DNA of 64,000 bases from an uncultured Cyclobacteriaceae bacterium (GTDB lineage Bacteria > Bacteroidota > Bacteroidia > Cytophagales > Cyclobacteriaceae). Within the stretch, counting starts at the first letter, position 1. Each line of letters opens with the position of its first letter. The stretch covers positions 1 to 64,000 of the forward strand of contig CALGOB010000062.1 in the NCBI GenBank assembly GCA_937958005.1, read 5' to 3'. Positions 21,751 to 38,835 of the stretch are shown here, in pieces. The notes under the pieces were generated by a model that made no database searches, was not told where the DNA came from, and worked only from the letters and a program-made list of their open reading frames with translations. The translations under genes were made by a program, and so were the position numbers.

Positions 21751-22950
21751 ATGATAGAGACAGCAAGGGAAGTAGAAAAAGCAGTGCTGGTAGCCTTGGT
21801 TCCACAAGGACAGACAGACGAAAAAACGAAAGAGTACTTAGATGAGTTGGAATTTCTAGCACAAACACTAGATATATCAACAAGTGAGGTCTTTACTCAA
21901 AAATTAGAATCTCCTGATAGAAGGACATTTATTGGAAAAGGCAAACTAGAAGAAGTTAAAGCCAGTGTAAAAGTACATGACGCAAAAATCGTTATTTTTG
22001 ATGATGATCTAAGTCCTTCCCAACTAAGGAATTTGGAAAAAGAAATTAAAGCAAAAATATATGATAGAAGTTTATTAATTCTAGACATATTCTTAAAACG
22101 AGCAAAAACATCGCAAGCAAAGACACAGGTAGAATTAGCTCGTTATCAATACCTTATGCCAAGATTGACTAGAATGTGGACTCACTTAGAAAGACAGCGG
22201 GGAGGCACTGGCACTAGAGGTGGAGCAGGAGAAAAGGAAATAGAAACTGATAGAAGGATTATTAGAGATCAAATTACAGTTTTGAAGAAAAAACTGGAAA
22301 AAATAGAACGCCAAAGTGCTACAAGGCGCAAATCAAGATCCAATATTGTAAGAGTAGCCTTTGCCGGATATACCAATGCGGGCAAGTCTACACTCATGAG
22401 AAAATTAAGTAAAGAAACTGTTTATGCAAAAGATGAATTATTTGCTACCGTAGATTCTACAGTTCGTAAAGTGGTAATTAATCAGATTCCTTTTTTACTT
22501 TCTGATACAGTAGGTTTTATCAGAAAACTGCCTCACAACTTGATAGAGTCTTTTAAATCCACACTTGATGAAGTAAAAGAAGCTGATATCCTAATTCATG
22601 TCATTGATGTCTCTAATCCCGCTTTTGAAGAACACATAGAAGTTGTAGAACAAACTTTGACTGACATAGGCGCCACTGGAATTAAAACAATTAAGGTTTA
22701 TAATAAAATAGATGCCACCAAGGAACCAGAGCATGATGAAGATGATCTAGAGTCACCAGCCCCAAATAAGATTTTTGCAGGTGAAAAATACAATAAAAAG
22801 GATTTTTCGTTTAGAATGAGTGCCCTGGATAAAAAAGATGTCAACCAATTTAGAAAGATCCTTTATGAAGAAGTAAAAGGTAAACATTTGAAAATTTATC
22901 CGCATTATCTGGAGCCTCAGATTTACGACCCTGAAGCAATGGAAGATTAG
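21751..22950 (+). CDS. hflX: Ribosome-associated GTPase HflX
   Basis: GTPase that binds the large ribosomal subunit and splits stalled or stressed 70S ribosomes. The N-terminal HflX domain is followed by the glycine-rich linker GGTGTRGGAGEKEIETDRR. The G domain then shows G1 GYTNAGKSTL, G3 DTVGFI and G4 YNKID. The length of 399 residues is normal. The start is the ATG at 21751. It ends in a 4-base convergent overlap with the antiporter gene. Confidence 0.95.
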   Translation: MIETAREVEKAVLVALVPQGQTDEKTKEYLDELEFLAQTLDISTSEVFTQKLESPDRRTFIGKGKLEEVKASVKVHDAKIVIFDDDLSPSQLRNLEKEIKAKIYDRSLLILDIFLKRAKTSQAKTQVELARYQYLMPRLTRMWTHLERQRGGTGTRGGAGEKEIETDRRIIRDQITVLKKKLEKIERQSATRRKSRSNIVRVAFAGYTNAGKSTLMRKLSKETVYAKDELFATVDSTVRKVVINQIPFLLSDTVGFIRKLPHNLIESFKSTLDEVKEADILIHVIDVSNPAFEEHIEVVEQTLTDIGATGIKTIKVYNKIDATKEPEHDEDDLESPAPNKIFAGEKYNKKDFSFRMSALDKKDVNQFRKILYEEVKGKHLKIYPHYLEPQIYDPEAMED

Positions 22951-24233
22951 GATAAGCTTTTTTCTTCTTCTTGCTTAGAGAGCTCCTCTATTTCCTGATC
23001 CAGTTCCTTCCAGTCTTCAAAGACTAAATTCTCTGTATCAGGAATATCTTCTCCCTTGGCAATCAGTCCTCCAGACATAATAAAACTAGAGGCGAGTATC
23101 ACTATTAGTAAAATAGTTGGATTAAATCCTTCTGCTAAATTTGCCACTGGGATAGAGAAAAACAATAATACTGTAATTAAACCTCTAGGTGCAATCCATA
23201 ACTGCGGGGTAATGCTTTTTCTGACAAAAATTTTAAGCAACAAAAATCGGATAACATAAGTAGCTATCAACACTCCTAAAGCAATCAGAATAGCTGATAC
23301 ATTCGTAATTCCTGAAAAATCAAGAGTCATTCCAAAAATTACGAAGAAAAATGTACGAACCACAAACGCAGTCTCATTAGTCACTACGTGGAAATCTTCC
23401 GTAATTTCATCAAGCACTTTAGGTTTGATCAATTTCTTAAGAAAACCCTTGAAAAACACATTGTAATTATTGAGCACCAAACCAAATACCATAATGATAA
23501 GTAGAGATGATAAATGAAACGTTTTACCTATCGAATAAAGTGCAATCAAAATAGAGATAAAGAAAAATAGTTTTACTTTAGCCTCAACGCGTTGTAACAA
23601 TACTACAAGAATGTAGCTAATAACAATTGACAATACAATCGTCAAAAGAATACTTCCACTCACATCAATAATAACCTCAGACGTAGTGGTAGCATCTGCA
23701 TTACCCAGCAAGAAATAAAAAAACATAATTCCTAAAATATCTGAAAATGTGCTCTCGTAAATTAAAAATTCTTTTTTCTCTCCTATCAAACTACCTACAC
23801 TAGGAATAATAATGGCACTACTCAGGATAGATAAAGGAATCGCATATAATAAGGCATCAAAAGTATTATCAATAATACCAGAGTAATAAAAGATACCTCC
23901 TATGGCAAAAGCTGTGAGTATTAAGGAAATAATCCCTACTAAAAAAGATTTGATTAATAAAGGAGTTTTTTCTCGTTTCAGCTTAAGATCCAAAGCCGCT
24001 TCTAAAACAATCATGATTAATCCTATAATCCCTAATAATTCTAGGGCTTCCATGATGTATTTCTGCAAATCTATCTCTGCACTTTTAAGGTATTCCTGAG
24101 CTCCTATCCCTAGTCCAATAAGTAAAAGAACACTTGGTATTTTTGTTTTTTTAGAAACAAAATTGAAAAAATAAGAAATAATCACCACGGCTGAAATAGC
24201 TATTGCTTCTGTATAAGCATTGAATAAATCCAT
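22947..24233 (-). CDS. Cation:proton antiporter (NhaP/Kef-like)
   Basis: Membrane antiporter of the monovalent cation/proton superfamily: about 12 helices across 428 residues, then a short acidic and basic cytosolic tail (LEDWKELDQEIEELSKQEEE-type). The hydrophobic start IAISAVVIISYFFNFVSKKTKIPSVLLLIGLGIG matches CPA-type exchangers, and ESTFSDILGIMFF holds the acidic residue expected in the transport core. No RCK/TrkA domain is attached, unlike KefB/C. Ion specificity (Na+ or K+) is not readable. Confidence 0.88.
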   Translation of the reverse strand: MDLFNAYTEAIAISAVVIISYFFNFVSKKTKIPSVLLLIGLGIGAQEYLKSAEIDLQKYIMEALELLGIIGLIMIVLEAALDLKLKREKTPLLIKSFLVGIISLILTAFAIGGIFYYSGIIDNTFDALLYAIPLSILSSAIIIPSVGSLIGEKKEFLIYESTFSDILGIMFFYFLLGNADATTTSEVIIDVSGSILLTIVLSIVISYILVVLLQRVEAKVKLFFFISILIALYSIGKTFHLSSLLIIMVFGLVLNNYNVFFKGFLKKLIKPKVLDEITEDFHVVTNETAFVVRTFFFVIFGMTLDFSGITNVSAILIALGVLIATYVIRFLLLKIFVRKSITPQLWIAPRGLITVLLFFSIPVANLAEGFNPTILLIVILASSFIMSGGLIAKGEDIPDTENLVFEDWKELDQEIEELSKQEEEKSLS

Positions 24234-24317: not shown

Positions 24318-24785
24318 TCTACTAGTATCCAAGCAAATAATTTAATGTGTTTTCCTACCCGAGACTTCTACTTTTAGGCCTTCTAGCGGGAGGATTGACT
24401 TGGTTAGTCACCCCGTCAAAAACTCGGCTGGGCCGCGATGGCGTACCAAGTGGTAATCTCAGAGAAAACGCACTGGCAGAAAGGGTAAATGGAGTACTTA
24501 AAGATGAATATTTATACAATTGCTCACCTGAAAACATTAAACAGGCCAAGCAAATACCTCATCAAACAATCAGTTTGTATAATAGTGAAAGACCTCATAT
24601 GAGTATTGGAAACCTTGTTTCTGAAAAAGTGCATGAACTGAACTTAAATACTGGTCAATTATGGAAGAGTTGTAACAAGAAAAAGAATATTATTGTAAAA
24701 CAATAACAGGACTATAAAAAATTGTAAGTTTATTGTAGGCCTATACTTTTAACCTGTAAACTTATTTTAAGACGAGACAGGATCC
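24318..24785 (+). pseudogene. IS3-family transposase remnant (C-terminal fragment)
   Basis: An open frame from about 24445 to 24706 encodes the end of an IS3 OrfB integrase: ENALAERVNGVLKDEYL, then SLYNSERPHMSIGN, the last DDE-domain motifs (the catalytic E lies in NALAERVNG). The catalytic domain upstream and OrfA are missing. Bases 24347-24444 are not transposase but GC-rich repeat-like DNA read in the same frame. The fragment is followed directly by a CTATGGGCAAT repeat. Not functional. Confidence 0.85.
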
Positions 24786-27673: not shown

Positions 27674-28555
27674 CTAGCCATTTTTCATTGTTACAATTCT
27701 TTGAGGAAGCGGTGCAGCATAACTAGCTTTCCCTAGTGCTTCCACTATTTTCTGTCTGGTATCCCAGTAAACGTCCCAATAAACTTCGCAATCAGCATAG
27801 GGCAAAGCCAACAATTCCACTCCATTTTCCCCTAAGTTATTAACTGCTACTCTTGGAGCCGGTTCTTTTAGTACATTTTCATCTGCCGAAAGCACATCCA
27901 TTACTATTTTTTGTGCTTGGACTATATCCGTACCATATTGTATGCCGAAAGGCATATCTACCCTTAGGTTTCCTTTCGTAGTCAAGTTGGTAATGGTTCC
28001 TGAAGTTATGGCACCATTTGGAATAATTTCAGTTTTATTCTGAAAGGTTTCTAAGATAGTAACAAAAACAGAAATCTCCTTTACGAAACCTAGTTTACCT
28101 CCTGTTTCAATAAGATCTCCCACTTTAAAAGGCCTAAATACTAAAAGCATTACTCCAGCAGCCATATGTCCCAATGATCCATTGAATGCTCCACCTATTG
28201 CTAATCCTATTGCTGCTAGCAAAGCTGCAAAGGTAGCAGTTGGGATTCCTACAATACCAGCAATAGAAATGAATAATAATACTTTGAGAATAAAACCTAT
28301 TAGAGTGACTAAAAATGGTTTAAGTGTTTGGTCAACTTTTCCTTTATCAAAACCTTTACGTACTGCATTCATAACGAGCTTCACAATAAAAAGCCCAATG
28401 ATCAAAGCAATAATCCCGCCTACTATTTTTAAACCATATTGTCCTACCCCTTCTTGCACTGAACTGATTACCCCATTAAAGGAATCAATTACTACATTAC
28501 CTGTTTGTGCAGAGGCGGAAACAAGGTTTTCTGCCAGTTTTTCAGTCTGTTGCAT
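27674..28555 (-). CDS. Small-conductance mechanosensitive channel, MscS family
   Basis: Homoheptameric channel that opens under membrane tension to release solutes on hypo-osmotic shock. Three hydrophobic segments (about 37-60, 80-100, 105-130), the last being the pore helix with alternating Gly/Ala (LLAAIGLAIGGAFNGSLGHMAAG). The cytosolic beta domain starts RPFKVGDLIETGGKLGFVKEISVFVT. 293 residues, the same size as E. coli MscS. An amphipathic N-terminal extension of about 35 residues precedes TM1. Confidence 0.95.
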   Translation of the reverse strand: MQQTEKLAENLVSASAQTGNVVIDSFNGVISSVQEGVGQYGLKIVGGIIALIIGLFIVKLVMNAVRKGFDKGKVDQTLKPFLVTLIGFILKVLLFISIAGIVGIPTATFAALLAAIGLAIGGAFNGSLGHMAAGVMLLVFRPFKVGDLIETGGKLGFVKEISVFVTILETFQNKTEIIPNGAITSGTITNLTTKGNLRVDMPFGIQYGTDIVQAQKIVMDVLSADENVLKEPAPRVAVNNLGENGVELLALPYADCEVYWDVYWDTRQKIVEALGKASYAAPLPQRIVTMKNG

Positions 28556-28857: not shown

Positions 28858-31800
28858 ATGGCAAAACAAAATAAGTTTGGAACATTTGGCGGAGTGTTTG
28901 TTCCATCTATTTTAACTATCCTGGGGGTAATCATGTATCTCAGGCTCCCAACCATAATAGGAGAAGCTGGTCTATGGGCCACTATTGGTATTATTATAGT
29001 AGCGCATATTATATCTGTCACCACAGGACTAAGTGTCTCTTCTATTGCTACTGATAAAAAAGTAGAAGCGGGAGGTACTTATTACATGATATCCAGAAGC
29101 CTTGGTCTTCCAATAGGGGGTACATTAGGAATTGCCTTGTTTATGGGGCTATCGTTTAGTGTGAGTTTATACCTGATAGGGTTTTCTGAAAGTTTTCTCA
29201 ATACCTTCGATTGGGAAATTACTAAGAATAATATTCGTCTAGTAGGATCTATTACACTCATCATTGTTACAATTATTACTTTTATTAGCACCTCTTTGGC
29301 GCTAAAAACTCAATATTTCATATTAGGTTTAATTGTACTTTCCCTCATTTCAATATTCATGGGTTTTGGAAATCATACACATGTTGCAGAAAGCCCATTA
29401 TTTACAAACCCTACTTCTACTATTCCCTTAATGACTTTATTTGGAATATTTTTTCCGGCAGTAACTGGCTTTGAAGCAGGAGTCTCTATGTCGGGTGATT
29501 TAAAAGATCCAAAAAAATCAATACCTGGTGGTTCTATTATGGCCATTGCTGTTGGTTTTACAGTCTATATAATACTGGCATTTTTCTTATCTTATACTGT
29601 GGATGCAGGCTTTCTTAACAATACGGATGGAAAAGCTCCAATGGTAGAAATAGCTCGTATTAAAGAATTAGTCATAGCAGGCATTTGGGGTGCCACACTT
29701 TCATCGGCATTAGGTAGTATTTTAGGTGCACCAAGAATCTTACAGGCTACAGCGATTGACAAAATAACACCTAGTTTTCTGGGAAAAGGATCTGAAAAAA
29801 GTAATGAACCCCGTAATGCATTGTTACTCACTTTTGCTCTTGCTGAAATCGGTATATTAATTGGTGAATTAGATGTAATTGCTAGAATTGTTTCTATCTT
29901 CTTCATTACCACTTACGGGTTCTTAAATATCAGTGCCGCTTTCGAGAAATTGACCAGTACCGATTTTCGTCCTGAGTTCAAAGTTTCACACTGGATCAGT
30001 ATTGTAGGTGCTATTGCCTGTATCATTGTCATGATCCTTTTAGATTTTGTGGCATTACTAGGAGCAACCGTACTTCTTTTTGCCTTGTTTTTCTATTTAA
30101 AGAACAAAGAACTCTCTCTTGAATCTGGTGATGCATGGAGCGGCGTTTGGGCTACACTGGTTAAAAAAGGGCTGACTAAATTAACTAAAAACAAACTGCA
30201 CAATAGAAACTGGAGGCCTAATATCATTATGTTTTCAGGTAATCCAAATACCCGAAAATACATGATCCAGATGGGCAAGGCCATTTCAGGTAAACTCGGG
30301 GTGCTCTCTGCCTTTGAACTTCAAGAGAGTGATGCTAAAATATTGGTAAAAACAGCTGCTAACCTCAAAGAAGAAGCTGATGATTCAGGTTATTTTCACT
30401 ATAAATTCAATTGCAAGGATGTCTATGCCGGGATGGACAGTGTTTCAAGGCTTTATGGTTTTTCAGGAATAGAACCCAATACCATTCTGATGGGCTGGAG
30501 CAGAAACCCGAGAAACAAAGACCAGTTTATTGACCTTTTGAAAGGCTTTGATGAAAATGGCTACAATTCCATTTTCCTAGATTATAATACTGAAAAGAAA
30601 TTTGGCAACCAAAAAACTGTAGATATCTGGTGGACTGGAAATGACAGAAATTTGTCTTTGGCCGTTAAGATTATTCAACACCTTACCTCATCAGAAATTT
30701 GGAAGGTATCCCAGACACGTTTGATGATCATTAACCCAATCAACTCAGAAGCAGAAAATATTTATAGGTCAGCCAGTGCCCTCATGAAAGATTTCAGGGT
30801 AGATGCCGATGTCAGAGTAATTAACAATGAATTAGATCCTCTTTCCAGAAAAGAAATAATAGCAGAGGAATCCAAAACAACCGATTTAGTGATTCTAGGC
30901 ATTTCAGACCGGGCTTATAGCAACCTTGGAGATCATTATGACGATATTAGTGGTATATTAGATGAAGTAGGCAGCACTATGGTTATCAATGCTTCTAAGG
31001 CATTTGAGGAACATGAGGTAATCAGGTTTAATCATACTAGTAAGGAAAATATTTCAACAGAATTTACTGACTTTAATTTACCAGAAATTAAACTTTCTAA
31101 ATATCCTGAAATAGCTGATGACATCACTTTACAACAGCAAAATGGAGCTAAGGTATTAGAACTACTTTTTAGAAAAACATTTGCCCAAACTTCTAAAGAC
31201 CGATTGTCTGCCATTGATGAAATACAACATAGAGTAGAATCTACTCAAAAGGAAGTCCTTAAAATCAACGACCTCAATGAACTTGTAAGGCGGAAAAAAG
31301 CTGTAGACAAACTGAAGAATGATACTTTCTACAAAGTAAATGCATTGCTTAAAAATGGCCTAAGTGATGAAATTCTTAAAGCTCATGAGGAGAAGTTAAC
31401 CCAAGGACTTAATTGGTATTTGGTAAGACTAAAAGAAGAAATCGCCAAATTTCCTATCAAGTTAGTAGTTAATTATCAAGCTGATGATATTAAAATAGAC
31501 CCTAGTGATAGATGGGGCTTAAGGTGGAATAAACGCTGGATGAAGTTTAAAAAGTCAATTTTTGGCATCTCATACAAGCAAGCTATCGCCTATAGAAAAA
31601 GTGCTAAATACTATCAGTACCAAAACAGGTTAGAATTCCTTAATCATTATTTAGAGCAGTTGTTATTAGAAGAAGTTTCTTTTTATGAGCAACTAAGAAA
31701 TATAACCAAAAACTTATTTGCTTATTTCGATAACTTAGAAAAGAAGTTTGATTCAGGGGATGAAAACTGGGCGGATACTTCAGTTCTTGAACAAGTCAAA

Positions 31801-33939
31801 AATGAGGTCATTCTTTTACGTGAATCTGAAAAATCATTGGACATCATCCAGCAAGGAAGGCTACAATTAGAGTATGTGAAAAATCTGCAAATTATGAATG
31901 ATCATTTATCATTAATAGATACAGATGAAATTACTTACCAAAAACTTAAGGGAGATAAATACCACAAAGAACTGGTGCAAAAAGCATCGGAGTTTCCCGC
32001 CTTGTATGATTTAAAAATCAGAAATACTTTAAATCTAATCTTGATAGAATTATCAGTAAACGCCACTCGAAATAGAATGGAGACTATTCAAGATAGTTTT
32101 ATTCAAGAGATCACGCAATTGCTGGAAAGGAAGTATTTTAAAGAGTTGGACCTTTTAGAAGAGATACTTACTAATGAGCAAGAGCTTCCACAACAAGAAA
32201 AATTTAATGCTTCACTGTCTTTAAACACGCATCTTAAGGAAGCATTTGACCATGCTCTGGAACGGATGATCCCATTAATAGAGCAGATGCCCGACAATTT
32301 AAAAATCTCCTCCATTACACAAAATGAAGAGGGTGACTCTTCAGTATCTATCCCTGTGGCAAGGATGATGGAATACTATTTCAAATCTCAGTTTCAAATA
32401 CCCATGGAAGAGGCGTTTGAGCAGTTAAGCGAATCTATCAAAAGATCCACTTACGGGGTTAAGGATATTATTAACCTGGTAGAAATTAGTTTGGAAGGTA
32501 ATCCAGAGAACAAAAATGCTAAAATAGAATCTGAAACTTTAACAGATGCACTCAAAAAAATAAAACAAGAATCCCAGACAGTCAAAGAAGACATCAAACA
32601 GTTTAAGGACATCTCTTGCGAAGCGTTAGGAGAGGTTTACAGCCCATTATCTTCAATGAAAATAGAAAAAAGTGCTTCTGAATTCTCGTCGGGACTGAGG
32701 GTATATCAAAGTAAACAAGTAATAAGCAGTTTAGGTGAACTGTGGCAAAATGGTCAATTGAAAGTTCAGAAATTGATGACAAAGATATTTTATAGCAGAA
32801 GTGAAGGAATTCTTTTTGCCAAGAAAAATAAGCACATCAATTACATACAATCCAATACCAGTAAACTACTTACTTTAAGGGAAAAAGTAAATCCAAAAAA
32901 GTCAGTTACTGCAGTACTTCCACATTTCTATGTGACATTATTCAATGGTAAGTCAAGCATTGGCAAAGATTATTGGGTCACTAGAAATATTGAAGAACAG
33001 TCATTTAAAAAAGCAGTTAAAAGATACAAAGAAGGCTATAAAGGAGGTATCATGGTCATCGGAGACCGTAATACCGGAAAGACTGTTTTCATTAAACAGA
33101 TGGCTCAAGAACTCCTTAAAAACCAACACGTTTATACTGTTTTTCCTTCATCTCAAGGAAGTAGAAGTATCGATGATTTTAATAAAGCCATAGCTAAAGC
33201 CACTCAAAAAAGAGGGGAAGCTCAACAAATCCTAGGCAGACTACCTGCAGGCAGCACCTTAGTAATTAATGATTTAGAATTATTTTGGGAAAGAAGTGAA
33301 GGTGGAAACGCAGTGATTAAACTCCTCCAACAGCTAATTAACCAATACAGTCATAAAATCCTATTCATCCTGAATACCAACCCTCAAGCCTTTAAAATCA
33401 TCAATCAAGAAAATTGCATAGAGCCATATTTTATCGAAATTATTAATATGATGTCATTTGATGCTGAAGAATTGAAAGATTTGGTAATGAAACGTCATAA
33501 ATCCAGTGGACTAGGAATAGTTTATCATGATGAAAAGGTTTTAACAGAGGTTCAGCTAGCACACCTATTCAATAAATATTTTGATTACAGCAGTGGAAAT
33601 CCTGGCACAGCATTGGGAGGTTGGTTAGCCCACATCAATAAACTGAGTAAAGGAAATTTGATTATTAATAAACCAGCTTTTCCTGCGCTTAGTATTTTCA
33701 ATGACTTAGATGAAAATTTGCAATTACTGCTTACGGAATTTGTTTATCATAAGAGACTTTCCGATGCAAGTATCGCTAAAGTCATGAAATGGAGTGAAGA
33801 ACATACAAATTCAATGATTTTATCTATGCAGCGTTCAGGCATCATTACAGAAAAAGTACCTGGGACTTATCAAATAGATCCATTTCTGCAACCTTTCCTA
33901 GTTCAAGCATTCAAGGAGAAAGGATTGTTTACTAAATGA
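28858..33939 (+). CDS. SLC12-type cation-chloride cotransporter fused to helical stalk and P-loop ATPase
   Basis: A single uninterrupted 1693-residue frame. Residues 1-416: APC-fold transporter with 12 helices, starting FGTFGGVFVPSILTILGVIMYLRLP, the hallmark of Na-K-Cl/K-Cl cotransporters. About 450-716: the SLC12 cytosolic domain with two alpha/beta units (NWRPNIIMFSGNPNTRKYM, TTDLVILGISDRAYSNLG). About 730-1330: mostly charged helices, probable coiled coil. About 1380-1560: ATPase with Walker A GDRNTGKT (1402-1409) and Walker B LVINDLE (D1472, E1474). The end looks like a winged helix (SDASIAKVMKWSEEHTNSMILSMQRSGII). Ordinary bacterial SLC12 proteins are about half this size or less. I infer an ATPase-gated ion cotransporter; ion specificity is unknown. 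Divergent from MscS, hence perhaps osmotic control. Confidence 0.85.
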   Translation: MAKQNKFGTFGGVFVPSILTILGVIMYLRLPTIIGEAGLWATIGIIIVAHIISVTTGLSVSSIATDKKVEAGGTYYMISRSLGLPIGGTLGIALFMGLSFSVSLYLIGFSESFLNTFDWEITKNNIRLVGSITLIIVTIITFISTSLALKTQYFILGLIVLSLISIFMGFGNHTHVAESPLFTNPTSTIPLMTLFGIFFPAVTGFEAGVSMSGDLKDPKKSIPGGSIMAIAVGFTVYIILAFFLSYTVDAGFLNNTDGKAPMVEIARIKELVIAGIWGATLSSALGSILGAPRILQATAIDKITPSFLGKGSEKSNEPRNALLLTFALAEIGILIGELDVIARIVSIFFITTYGFLNISAAFEKLTSTDFRPEFKVSHWISIVGAIACIIVMILLDFVALLGATVLLFALFFYLKNKELSLESGDAWSGVWATLVKKGLTKLTKNKLHNRNWRPNIIMFSGNPNTRKYMIQMGKAISGKLGVLSAFELQESDAKILVKTAANLKEEADDSGYFHYKFNCKDVYAGMDSVSRLYGFSGIEPNTILMGWSRNPRNKDQFIDLLKGFDENGYNSIFLDYNTEKKFGNQKTVDIWWTGNDRNLSLAVKIIQHLTSSEIWKVSQTRLMIINPINSEAENIYRSASALMKDFRVDADVRVINNELDPLSRKEIIAEESKTTDLVILGISDRAYSNLGDHYDDISGILDEVGSTMVINASKAFEEHEVIRFNHTSKENISTEFTDFNLPEIKLSKYPEIADDITLQQQNGAKVLELLFRKTFAQTSKDRLSAIDEIQHRVESTQKEVLKINDLNELVRRKKAVDKLKNDTFYKVNALLKNGLSDEILKAHEEKLTQGLNWYLVRLKEEIAKFPIKLVVNYQADDIKIDPSDRWGLRWNKRWMKFKKSIFGISYKQAIAYRKSAKYYQYQNRLEFLNHYLEQLLLEEVSFYEQLRNITKNLFAYFDNLEKKFDSGDENWADTSVLEQVKNEVILLRESEKSLDIIQQGRLQLEYVKNLQIMNDHLSLIDTDEITYQKLKGDKYHKELVQKASEFPALYDLKIRNTLNLILIELSVNATRNRMETIQDSFIQEITQLLERKYFKELDLLEEILTNEQELPQQEKFNASLSLNTHLKEAFDHALERMIPLIEQMPDNLKISSITQNEEGDSSVSIPVARMMEYYFKSQFQIPMEEAFEQLSESIKRSTYGVKDIINLVEISLEGNPENKNAKIESETLTDALKKIKQESQTVKEDIKQFKDISCEALGEVYSPLSSMKIEKSASEFSSGLRVYQSKQVISSLGELWQNGQLKVQKLMTKIFYSRSEGILFAKKNKHINYIQSNTSKLLTLREKVNPKKSVTAVLPHFYVTLFNGKSSIGKDYWVTRNIEEQSFKKAVKRYKEGYKGGIMVIGDRNTGKTVFIKQMAQELLKNQHVYTVFPSSQGSRSIDDFNKAIAKATQKRGEAQQILGRLPAGSTLVINDLELFWERSEGGNAVIKLLQQLINQYSHKILFILNTNPQAFKIINQENCIEPYFIEIINMMSFDAEELKDLVMKRHKSSGLGIVYHDEKVLTEVQLAHLFNKYFDYSSGNPGTALGGWLAHINKLSKGNLIINKPAFPALSIFNDLDENLQLLLTEFVYHKRLSDASIAKVMKWSEEHTNSMILSMQRSGIITEKVPGTYQIDPFLQPFLVQAFKEKGLFTK

Positions 33940-37351: not shown

Positions 37352-37895
37352 TTAAAGTTTTCTCAACTTATAAATTACTCTTTCCCCTTTGTTAAATACT
37401 TGCCCCAAAATAAGGTCTCCATTCCTGTCAATATCACCTACCACTACTGAAACAGTTTCATTCCCTATAGCTAAATTCCCAAGTTCAAAATTAAATAGAT
37501 TGGGAATTTCTACTGTCCCACTGAAATACTTTGATACCTCTACGGTATAAAGAATCTGATTTTGTCCTCCTAAAAACCGTGCTTCACTATCTACAAATTT
37601 AATCATAGATACATCAGTCAGGTTGTTATCCGTAGCTGGGTAAAGTAATTTATTCACTGCTATCAGGCTTACTGAATCAAATTCACCCCGTCCCTCTTTT
37701 TCTAACTCAACCAACCATCTTCCGGCCAAACCTTGCACGGTTGTGAATAGTGTATTGTTCCTCCCATTTTCTTCTTCTTCATCATTATCTTCATCTTCGT
37801 CATTCTGACCATCTTCTCCGTCTTGACCATCCTCTCCATTTTGGCCATCTTCTTCATCTTGATCATTTCCTTCTTGCTTGCCATCAGACTCTATC
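37352..37895 (-). pseudogene. 5'-truncated protein with acidic Gly-Gln repeats
   Basis: The open frame reaches 38077, but its first ~55 codons are the antisense of the IS1595 remnant, so the native gene is retained only from about residue 60 on. That part starts with a low-complexity acidic tract built of EDGQNG/EDGQDG units and runs of Asp/Glu, then a beta-rich region ending in VVVGDIDRNGDLILGQVFNKGERVIYKLRKL. It looks like the C-terminal part of an exported protein; I do not recognise the family. The insertion removed its signal and start, so it is probably dead. Confidence 0.6.
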
Positions 37896-38835
37896 TCATC
37901 GTTAATAAAATCTAGTGCTTCTTCAACTGATACATTCCCGATGATCAAAGCTGTATGAATCACTTGGCCAAGCTTAAATGGCTTGATGGCTTTGTCTGTG
38001 AAAAATGTAGCCATACAAAATATTGTAAGGCAAACTTGAACAGACCCGTCAATGTACTTCTTGTGGATATCAGGCAACCCCTACCAGAGGTACACTGTTC
38101 CATAAAGTCAAATTCCCACTGCTTAAAGCTTTTTACATAGTCTATTTTATGAGTACCAATAAAAAAAGGATCTCATCTACAGAATTAAGCCGTAAACTCA
38201 ACCTGAGACAGAAAACCTGCTGGTTGTTCCATAAAAAGGTAGCGCAGGCTATGAAAAGCAGTAAACTATATCCCCTTAAAGGTATTGTTGAGATAGATGA
38301 AACGGTAGTTGGCCAACAGGAAGAAGATGTGGTCGGCCGTGCTAATAAGAAAAAGAAATTAGTTATTGTAGGCATTGAGAAACAGGGTAAAGGTGTGAGT
38401 AGAATGTATGTAAAAGTAGTTCCAGGTGCTAGCGAAAAGTCTTTTAAACCCTTTTTTATCGATTATATCGATAAGGGTCGCAAATTAGGACAGATGGATG
38501 GTCAACGTATCAAACTTTTTTGGAAAATTATCCCAACCTCAAACAGGAGAAAAGTAGCAAGAAAGGTGAAAATTTCAAAGATATGCATAGGGTGATCATG
38601 ATGTTTAAGGTGCGGCCGGCTAGGTATGGCTTAAGGGAATACATCATTCAGTAATGCATTTACAAGATTACCTTGATGAATATGCATACAGGTTCAATAG
38701 GAGCTTTATGAAAGAAAACATATTCGATAACCTTATCAGTAGGGCTGTGAAAATGGCGCCAGTTCCGAAAAAAACAATGAACAAGCAATTGCTAACCCAT
38801 ACTATTGGGTTCCTTTCGTTTCAATAGGAGATCAG
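37896..38835 (+). pseudogene. Decayed IS1595-type transposase
   Basis: Three pieces in different frames reconstruct one transposase. Piece 1 (to about 38050): IPDDQSCMNHLAKLKW and CEKCSHTKYC. Piece 2 (about 38049-38540): CTSCGYQATPTRGTLFHKV completing the zinc ribbon, then TELSRKLNLRQKTCWLFHKK and the DDE start GIVEIDETVVGQQEED. After a further disruption, MHRVIMMFK leads to piece 3 (about 38650-38830): HLQDYLDEYAYRFNRSFMKE. At least two frameshifts plus in-frame stops near the start exclude activity. The terminal inverted repeats could not be located. Confidence 0.85.

Follow-up and report, generated by a model that had tools for sequence, protein, structure and literature searches.

In KtrAB and TrkAH, a K+ uptake protein is controlled by a cytosolic, nucleotide-binding RCK subunit. 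The locus described here bears a functional likeness only to these systems: RCK subunits are Rossmann-fold ligand sensors, not AAA+ proteins, and the transporter is unrelated. AAA+ ATPases of the ORC/Cdc6, TnsC and STAND types, which act on DNA, in transposition or in signalling, have in common with it the AAA+ fold with a C-terminal winged helix, the Walker A and B motifs, the sensor-1 Asn and a conserved Arg. We know of no ATPase of these types that is covalently joined to an ion transporter. MscS channels enter the comparison through a partner gene at related loci, whose product matches the MscS β-domain; beside free-standing ATPases the partner has the canonical pore helix, whereas beside SLC12 fusions, unlike MscS channels, it lacks the canonical TM3 motif. 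SLC12 proteins (NKCC1, KCC2 and prokaryotic homologues), among which are human chloride transporters of kidney and nerve, have the same membrane domain and two-part cytosolic domain, the ATLSS motif and the K+-site Tyr, Pro and Thr. Adenine nucleotides bind the cytosolic domain of KCC1, and ATP or ADP has been found bound to the human protein; the site is that domain's own pocket, unlike the added ATPase reported here (PMC8280820).

The window, a 64,000-nucleotide stretch of DNA from an uncultured Cyclobacteriaceae bacterium, encodes a protein in which an SLC12 transporter is followed by a predicted helical stalk and an AAA+ ATPase. As far as the searches in this analysis show, no previously described SLC12 protein has a stalk and AAA+ ATPase. 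Neither the joined architecture nor the AAA+–MscS pair matched a named family beyond generic AAA models, and we found no description of the fusion or the pair in the open-access literature. SLC12, ORC-like AAA+ and MscS proteins are each known; an SLC12 protein with a putative ATPase control module is apparently undescribed, and there is a substantial chance that the fusion defines a new class.

Architecture of the fusion protein

The gene opens with ATG and runs for 1693 codons with zero internal stops; the opposite strand is stop-rich and closed. Full-length homologues of ∼1640–1820 aa recur in many independent genomes, which rules out an artefactual assembly join. The gene is a true SLC12–ATPase fusion, and on this point the sequence-only reading, which had placed an SLC12 transporter and a P-loop ATPase in one 1693-residue frame, is upheld. 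Its parts are as follows.

28858..33939, + strand: SLC12–stalk–AAA+ fusion gene, 1693 aa
28873..30102, + strand: SLC12 membrane domain, APC/LeuT-type, NKCC-like (residues 6–415; PF00324 and PDB alignments to NKCC1 and KCC2)
29692..29706, + strand: ATLSS, Na+-site signature in TM8 of Na+-coupled SLC12 proteins (residues 279–283; identical in the aligned NKCC1 chain)
30145..30957, + strand: SLC12 cytosolic domain (about residues 430–700; alignment to the KCC2/KCC4 C-terminal domain)
31105..32847, + strand: predicted long-helix stalk (about residues 750–1330; AlphaFold2 models, without a recognised relative)
32875..33687, + strand: AAA+ ATPase domain, ORC/Cdc6/TnsC-like (about residues 1340–1610; Pfam, PDB profile and fold matches)
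33061..33084, + strand: Walker A, GDRNTGKT (residues 1402–1409; canonical in 93/97 of the fused clade)
33259..33279, + strand: Walker B, LVINDLE (residues 1468–1474; D and E each retained in 94/97 of the fused clade)
33712..33936, + strand: predicted C-terminal winged-helix-like domain (about residues 1619–1693; AlphaFold2 model, VIA-align to ORC2)

In the SLC12 half, Pfam AA_permease (PF00324) spans residues 12–415 (E = 6e-46). A match to TIGR00930, the K-Cl cotransporter model of NCBIfam, has E = 1e-113 yet falls under the curated cut-off. Aligned by sequence, solved KCC, NKCC and NCC structures match the fusion protein up to about residue 660; E values for NKCC1 and KCC2 are about 1e-60 to 1e-78, and the KCC2 alignment runs through the cytosolic domain to residue 658. 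An SLC12 domain complete with its cytosolic domain, as proposed earlier, is thus borne out by PF00324 and by the alignments to KCC2 and NKCC1. ATLSS has been named as a signature of Na+-coupled SLC12 members (PMC11641049). It is retained in 74 fused SLC12 domains, and KCC2 shows TCGAG-type residues at the aligned position. The TM3 Tyr, the FPAVTG of TM6 and the TM10 Tyr of the fusion align with NKCC1; ATLSS, FPAVTG, LYL and TYG are present in the window copy and in most fused homologues, and the K+-site Tyr, Pro and Thr are kept in the fused SLC12 domains. TM1 is only partly matched, reading LTILGV rather than LNI(W/F)GV. Since ATLSS and the TM3, TM6 and TM10 residues align with NKCC1, NKCC-like ion coupling is plausible, as inferred from alignment.

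To describe the remainder, an AlphaFold2 model of residues 735–1693 was built from 55 homologues (mean pLDDT 87.5, pTM 0.58), and the stalk was also modelled alone (pLDDT 84.8). The stalk (∼600 residues) is predicted to consist of long helices and two small hairpins. Among solved structures it had no Foldseek fold match at E ≤ 0.001, its VIA-align Z scores (up to 9.7) lie in the range expected of unrelated helical bundles, and a sequence search returned chance coiled-coil matches only. The final ∼340 residues of the predicted model form an AAA+ domain with a winged helix, for which the nearest folds are Cdc6/ORC and TnsC. VIA-align gave Z 15.1 for Aeropyrum ORC2 (1w5t_C) against model residues 619–958, i.e. 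the AAA+ domain and winged helix (311 residues, 5.0 Å), and Z 15.5 for 7jgr_G; Foldseek matched the Cdc6/ORC-type structure 1fnn_A (E = 4e-7). Pfam AAA_22 and AAA match residues 1394–1509 with scores slightly over the gathering cut-offs, and Cdc6 is among the best domain-length matches in a profile search of PDB sequences. As modelled, the ATPase head is an ORC/Cdc6/TnsC-like AAA+ fold. STAND family models scored under cut-off (nSTAND_NTPase5, 21.1 bits versus 34; AAA_16, 19.7 versus 32.6), and a STAND NTPase assignment was not filed.

Much of what had been read from the letters alone is recovered here. Walker A at residues 1402–1409 and the LVINDLE Walker B are where they had been placed (the latter at 1468–1474), and an ORC-like AAA+ match was obtained with Walker residues conserved across fused homologues. 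The models likewise favour the proposed helical stalk of ∼600 residues and, together with the VIA-align match to ORC2, the winged-helix-like end.

Relatives, neighbours and the MscS-like partner

Searching the order, the class and the phylum by profile, along with one named collection, gave 157 loci, with known duplicates removed. These were gathered by ATPase homology, not by MscS; close relatives are unweighted, so the loci are not all independent. The same fusion was sought in other Bacteroidota and found: ∼75 other loci carry it, mostly in Bacteroidota and also in Ignavibacteria, Calditrichota, Acidobacteriota and Myxococcota. Flexithrix dorotheae and Fulvivirga sp. are among the carriers. 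At the level of the order the distribution is patchy (28/390 genomes, distant matches included), and the stalk–ATPase module was seen on none of the plasmids or phages sampled. The SLC12 domains of the fusions are monophyletic (81/81, support 0.985), and in a midpoint-rooted ATPase tree the fusions all share a single clade, distinct from the free modules of the typical MscS-paired kind. Unfused members within that clade are mostly contig-edge fragments or frame-split genes; probable real losses are few (L132, the L178 group, L179 and L185–L187). One old fusion is the simplest reading of both trees. A small branch of the fused clade (L178, L258, L264) has neither an SLC12 part nor a recognisable MscS neighbour, and L178 alone is full length (1122 aa). 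At three further loci (L156, L157, L194), the ATPase head stands alone at 413–433 aa, with no stalk and with an MscS gene directly after it.

Separate genes also exist, for SLC12 alone (∼740 aa) and for the stalk–ATPase alone (∼960–1040 aa). The window's genome itself has a second stalk–ATPase copy of 964 aa, without SLC12 and directly upstream of an MscS gene. The sequence-only reading had held that separate, unrelated genes for the two halves would speak against its proposal. Separate copies are indeed found, but the free-standing ATPase remains tied to an MscS gene, and a functional link is therefore supported rather than refuted.

Across the 157 loci, an MscS-like gene lies immediately adjacent to the stalk–ATPase gene on the same strand in 146 (137 downstream, 9 upstream). 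By form, this holds for 72/76 SLC12 fusions, 4/4 exchanger fusions and 70/77 others, the last group including fusions cut by contig ends. As MscS played no part in collecting the loci, the association does not follow from the search itself; and because the window's genome has only eight MscS β-domain genes, we estimate the probability of chance adjacency at a fraction of a percent, well under 1%. The distance between the ATPase and MscS genes is centred at −4 to 0 bases, a spacing like that of translationally coupled pairs, and the overlap is exactly 4 bases in 29 of the 72 SLC12 fusions with a downstream partner, which suggests that fusion and partner are coupled in translation. The reversed order, with the MscS-like gene before the ATPase gene and the ends mostly overlapping, was seen at L165, L168–L172, L174, L175 and L192.

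The short downstream partner has an MscS β-domain: in L042 and L043, PF00924 scores above its cut-off. Next to SLC12 fusions the partner's length is mostly 217–265 aa, or it has shrunk to a C-terminal domain of 97–123 aa. These remnants match only positions 159–244 of a 245-position short-MscS model (best E = 3e-11). In the window's nearest relatives (Fulvivirga, Imperialibacter and other Cyclobacteriaceae or Flammeovirgaceae), this C-terminal domain is the sole remainder, and its gene overlaps the stop codon of the fusion. The stepwise shrinkage suggests that the C-terminal domain is the part of the partner that the module uses. Within the window, no MscS-like partner gene follows the fusion; nor was a mini-partner found elsewhere in the genome (assembly 96% complete; search without a positive control).

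The module is also joined to a second transporter type, unrelated to SLC12, in at least four genomes. At L158, L159, L162 and L164, a Na+/H+ exchanger domain (PF00999, E = 7e-19 in L158) precedes the same stalk and ATPase in a protein of ∼1500 aa, and a full-length MscS gene follows. L163 and L167 have a similar ∼1500-aa layout in which the N-terminal part has no Pfam match; in L167 this part is a multi-helix membrane region. L185–L187 have a divergent ATPase of ∼800 aa with two further genes after it on the same strand, first one of ∼240 aa, which in L185 is MscS-like by profile, and next a Na+/H+ exchanger gene. Furthermore, a divergently oriented exchanger gene adjoins the fusion in 18 SLC12-fused loci. 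Two genes of the window bear on this arrangement.

22947..24233, − strand: Na+/H+ exchanger, counterpart of the divergent exchanger found by many SLC12–ATPase fusions (PF00999)
27674..28555, − strand: MscS channel gene in which each of the three MscS domains is present (Pfam); absent at this position in related loci

In the window, the exchanger and the fusion are separated by the MscS gene, an FtsX/MacB permease and part of an integrase. This last is a fragment of the integrase core (rve_3) at 24347–24706; in relatives the exchanger and fusion genes adjoin each other. A fragment of an IS1595-type transposase lies at 38149–38595, and an open frame at 37352–38077 (− strand) contains a strongly acidic DGQNGEDGQDGEDGQNDEDEDND stretch and has no Pfam match. 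The divergent MscS neighbour had been offered as a sign of volume or osmotic control. It is a real gene, and the ion or osmotic context is supported; however, related loci have an exchanger in its place, so it is a local feature and was ruled out as the conserved partner. That partner is normally the gene directly downstream, missing here.

Opposite trends in the ATPase site and the channel pore

In the fused clade (n = 97), Walker A is canonical in 93 members, the Walker B Asp is present in 94, the sensor-1 Asn in 87 and an Arg-His pair in all 97. This conservation implies that the fused ATPase is a working one. The corresponding values for the free clade (n = 58) are 21 for canonical Walker A, 14 for the Walker B Asp and 1 for the sensor-1 Asn. 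In all, 25/58 free members have no Lys or Arg at the Walker A Lys position and 44/58 lack the Walker B aspartate, which means that hydrolysis cannot be a property of the whole family. In 21 of those 25 there is a Lys four residues earlier (GEKxxGLT type), possibly a relocated catalytic lysine. Among free-standing members, L034, L039 and L121–L129, for example, have L, M, A, N, I, T or V in place of the Walker A lysine, and the lysine of GEKxxGxT is conserved. A degenerate Walker motif across the family had been named as evidence against the earlier proposal; degeneracy is confined to the free-standing branch, and the fused branch is conserved (93/97).

The MscS partner shows the opposite pattern. 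A canonical (GFASQD-like) pore-helix motif is present in 47/57 partners of the free clade versus 0/89 of the fused clade, and the Gly+Ala fraction of TM3 is 0.33 versus 0.13; the short downstream partner does not have a Gly/Ala-rich TM3 pore helix. Judged from these motifs, the change is reciprocal: the fused branch keeps the ATPase site beside a partner without the canonical pore motif, and in the free branch the pore helix is canonical and the ATPase site often degenerate. This hints at where each branch has its working end.

Candidate roles of the module

We favour the view that the gene encodes an SLC12 cotransporter with an ATP-dependent stalk–AAA+ regulatory module that sets uptake of K+, Na+ and Cl−, and we put its probability at roughly one half. 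The product would be an SLC12-type Na+/K+/Cl− cotransporter with this module at its cytosolic end. Cycling of the AAA+ head between nucleotide states would answer to a cue from the cytosol (osmotic, ionic strength or energy). Where an MscS-derived subunit exists, it would be a sensor or anchor, and its C-terminal domain would take part in reading the cue. In the SLC12 branch, ATP binding, and probably hydrolysis, would set a conformation that the stalk relays to the transporter; ATP would thus regulate transport rather than power it. We infer the complex of module and MscS-like protein, as well as the direction of transport, the nature of the signal and ATP hydrolysis.

The module is tied to three unrelated types of ion-flux protein: SLC12 (fused), Na+/H+ exchanger (fused) and MscS (adjacent). 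As the family accompanies proteins of three kinds (cotransporter, antiporter, tension-gated channel), a common ion-flux control module is the best reading. Nucleotide binding by KCC1 and the module's absence from the sampled plasmids and phages also speak for it. Plesiocystis pacifica, Enhygromyxa salina and Flexithrix dorotheae, which are marine or saline organisms, are among those with loci of the module family in the named collection, and control of salt fits this. On the other side, the modelled winged helix could bind nucleic acid, which is a point against a switch, as are the missing MscS-like partner of the window copy, the degenerate site of many free-standing modules and the patchy distribution. 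Somewhat short of even odds, in our judgement, is the broader proposal of a new control class, in which an ORC-like AAA+ stalk module would plug into SLC12, Na+/H+ exchanger and MscS proteins, making their activity dependent on both ATP and osmotic state; the MscS-derived subunit would act as a sensor or as an anchor.

Other roles for the ATPase have to be weighed against a regulatory switch. It may be a remodelling or assembly factor for oligomers of the MscS-like protein and the transporter, building, dismantling or recycling them with no switching of activity. An AAA+ fold with canonical motifs is predicted, ClpC, ClpB and NSF are among the Foldseek and VIA-align neighbours besides ORC, and free modules pair with full-length MscS proteins having a canonical pore helix. 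Yet the best fold matches are switch-type ATPases (ORC/Cdc6/TnsC) and not unfoldases, 1:1 covalent attachment to a transporter is unusual for such a factor, and many MscS-paired members have a degenerate ATPase site, although remodelling should need hydrolysis. We consider this role unlikely. That hydrolysis drives transport directly, making the protein a hybrid primary-active SLC12 pump, would agree with retention of active-site residues specifically in the SLC12-fused clade. Nevertheless, the SLC12 domain keeps the Na+/K+ site residues of secondary transporters, and hence its own ion-gradient sites, which makes ATP less likely as the direct source of power; related SLC12 genes occur without the module, and the two machines are a ∼600-aa stalk apart. 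A pump therefore seems very improbable.

Equally improbable is an anti-phage or cell-suicide system, in which a STAND-like ATPase sensor would trigger ion leakage via the transporter or channel. The head is of ORC/STAND type, PADLOC gave a weak match to mads_8 (E = 5e-5), and Pfam nSTAND matches are weak and sub-cut-off. However, PADLOC gave no strong defence-family match, the sampled plasmids and phages carry none, the partners are ion-homeostasis genes, and the order and sizes of the genes around the locus are repeated from genus to genus in one family (f43), like those of housekeeping loci; these points weigh against the defence reading. Least probable, by a shade, is that fusion merely secures co-production of two independently working proteins. 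Both halves are found as separate genes, as this would have it, but a single old fusion lineage persists across several phyla with motifs conserved on both sides and few splits, and the module has also joined a second, unrelated transporter.

Under the favoured reading, that of an ATP-dependent regulatory module, the fusion points to an undescribed means by which the energy or osmotic state of the cell could bear on ion transport. A bacterial protein with the ATPase in the same polypeptide offers a natural and genetically simple test of whether and how cellular ATP controls SLC12 transport. Through the link to MscS, one gene pair would cover both arms of volume control: the uptake of salt and the release of pressure.
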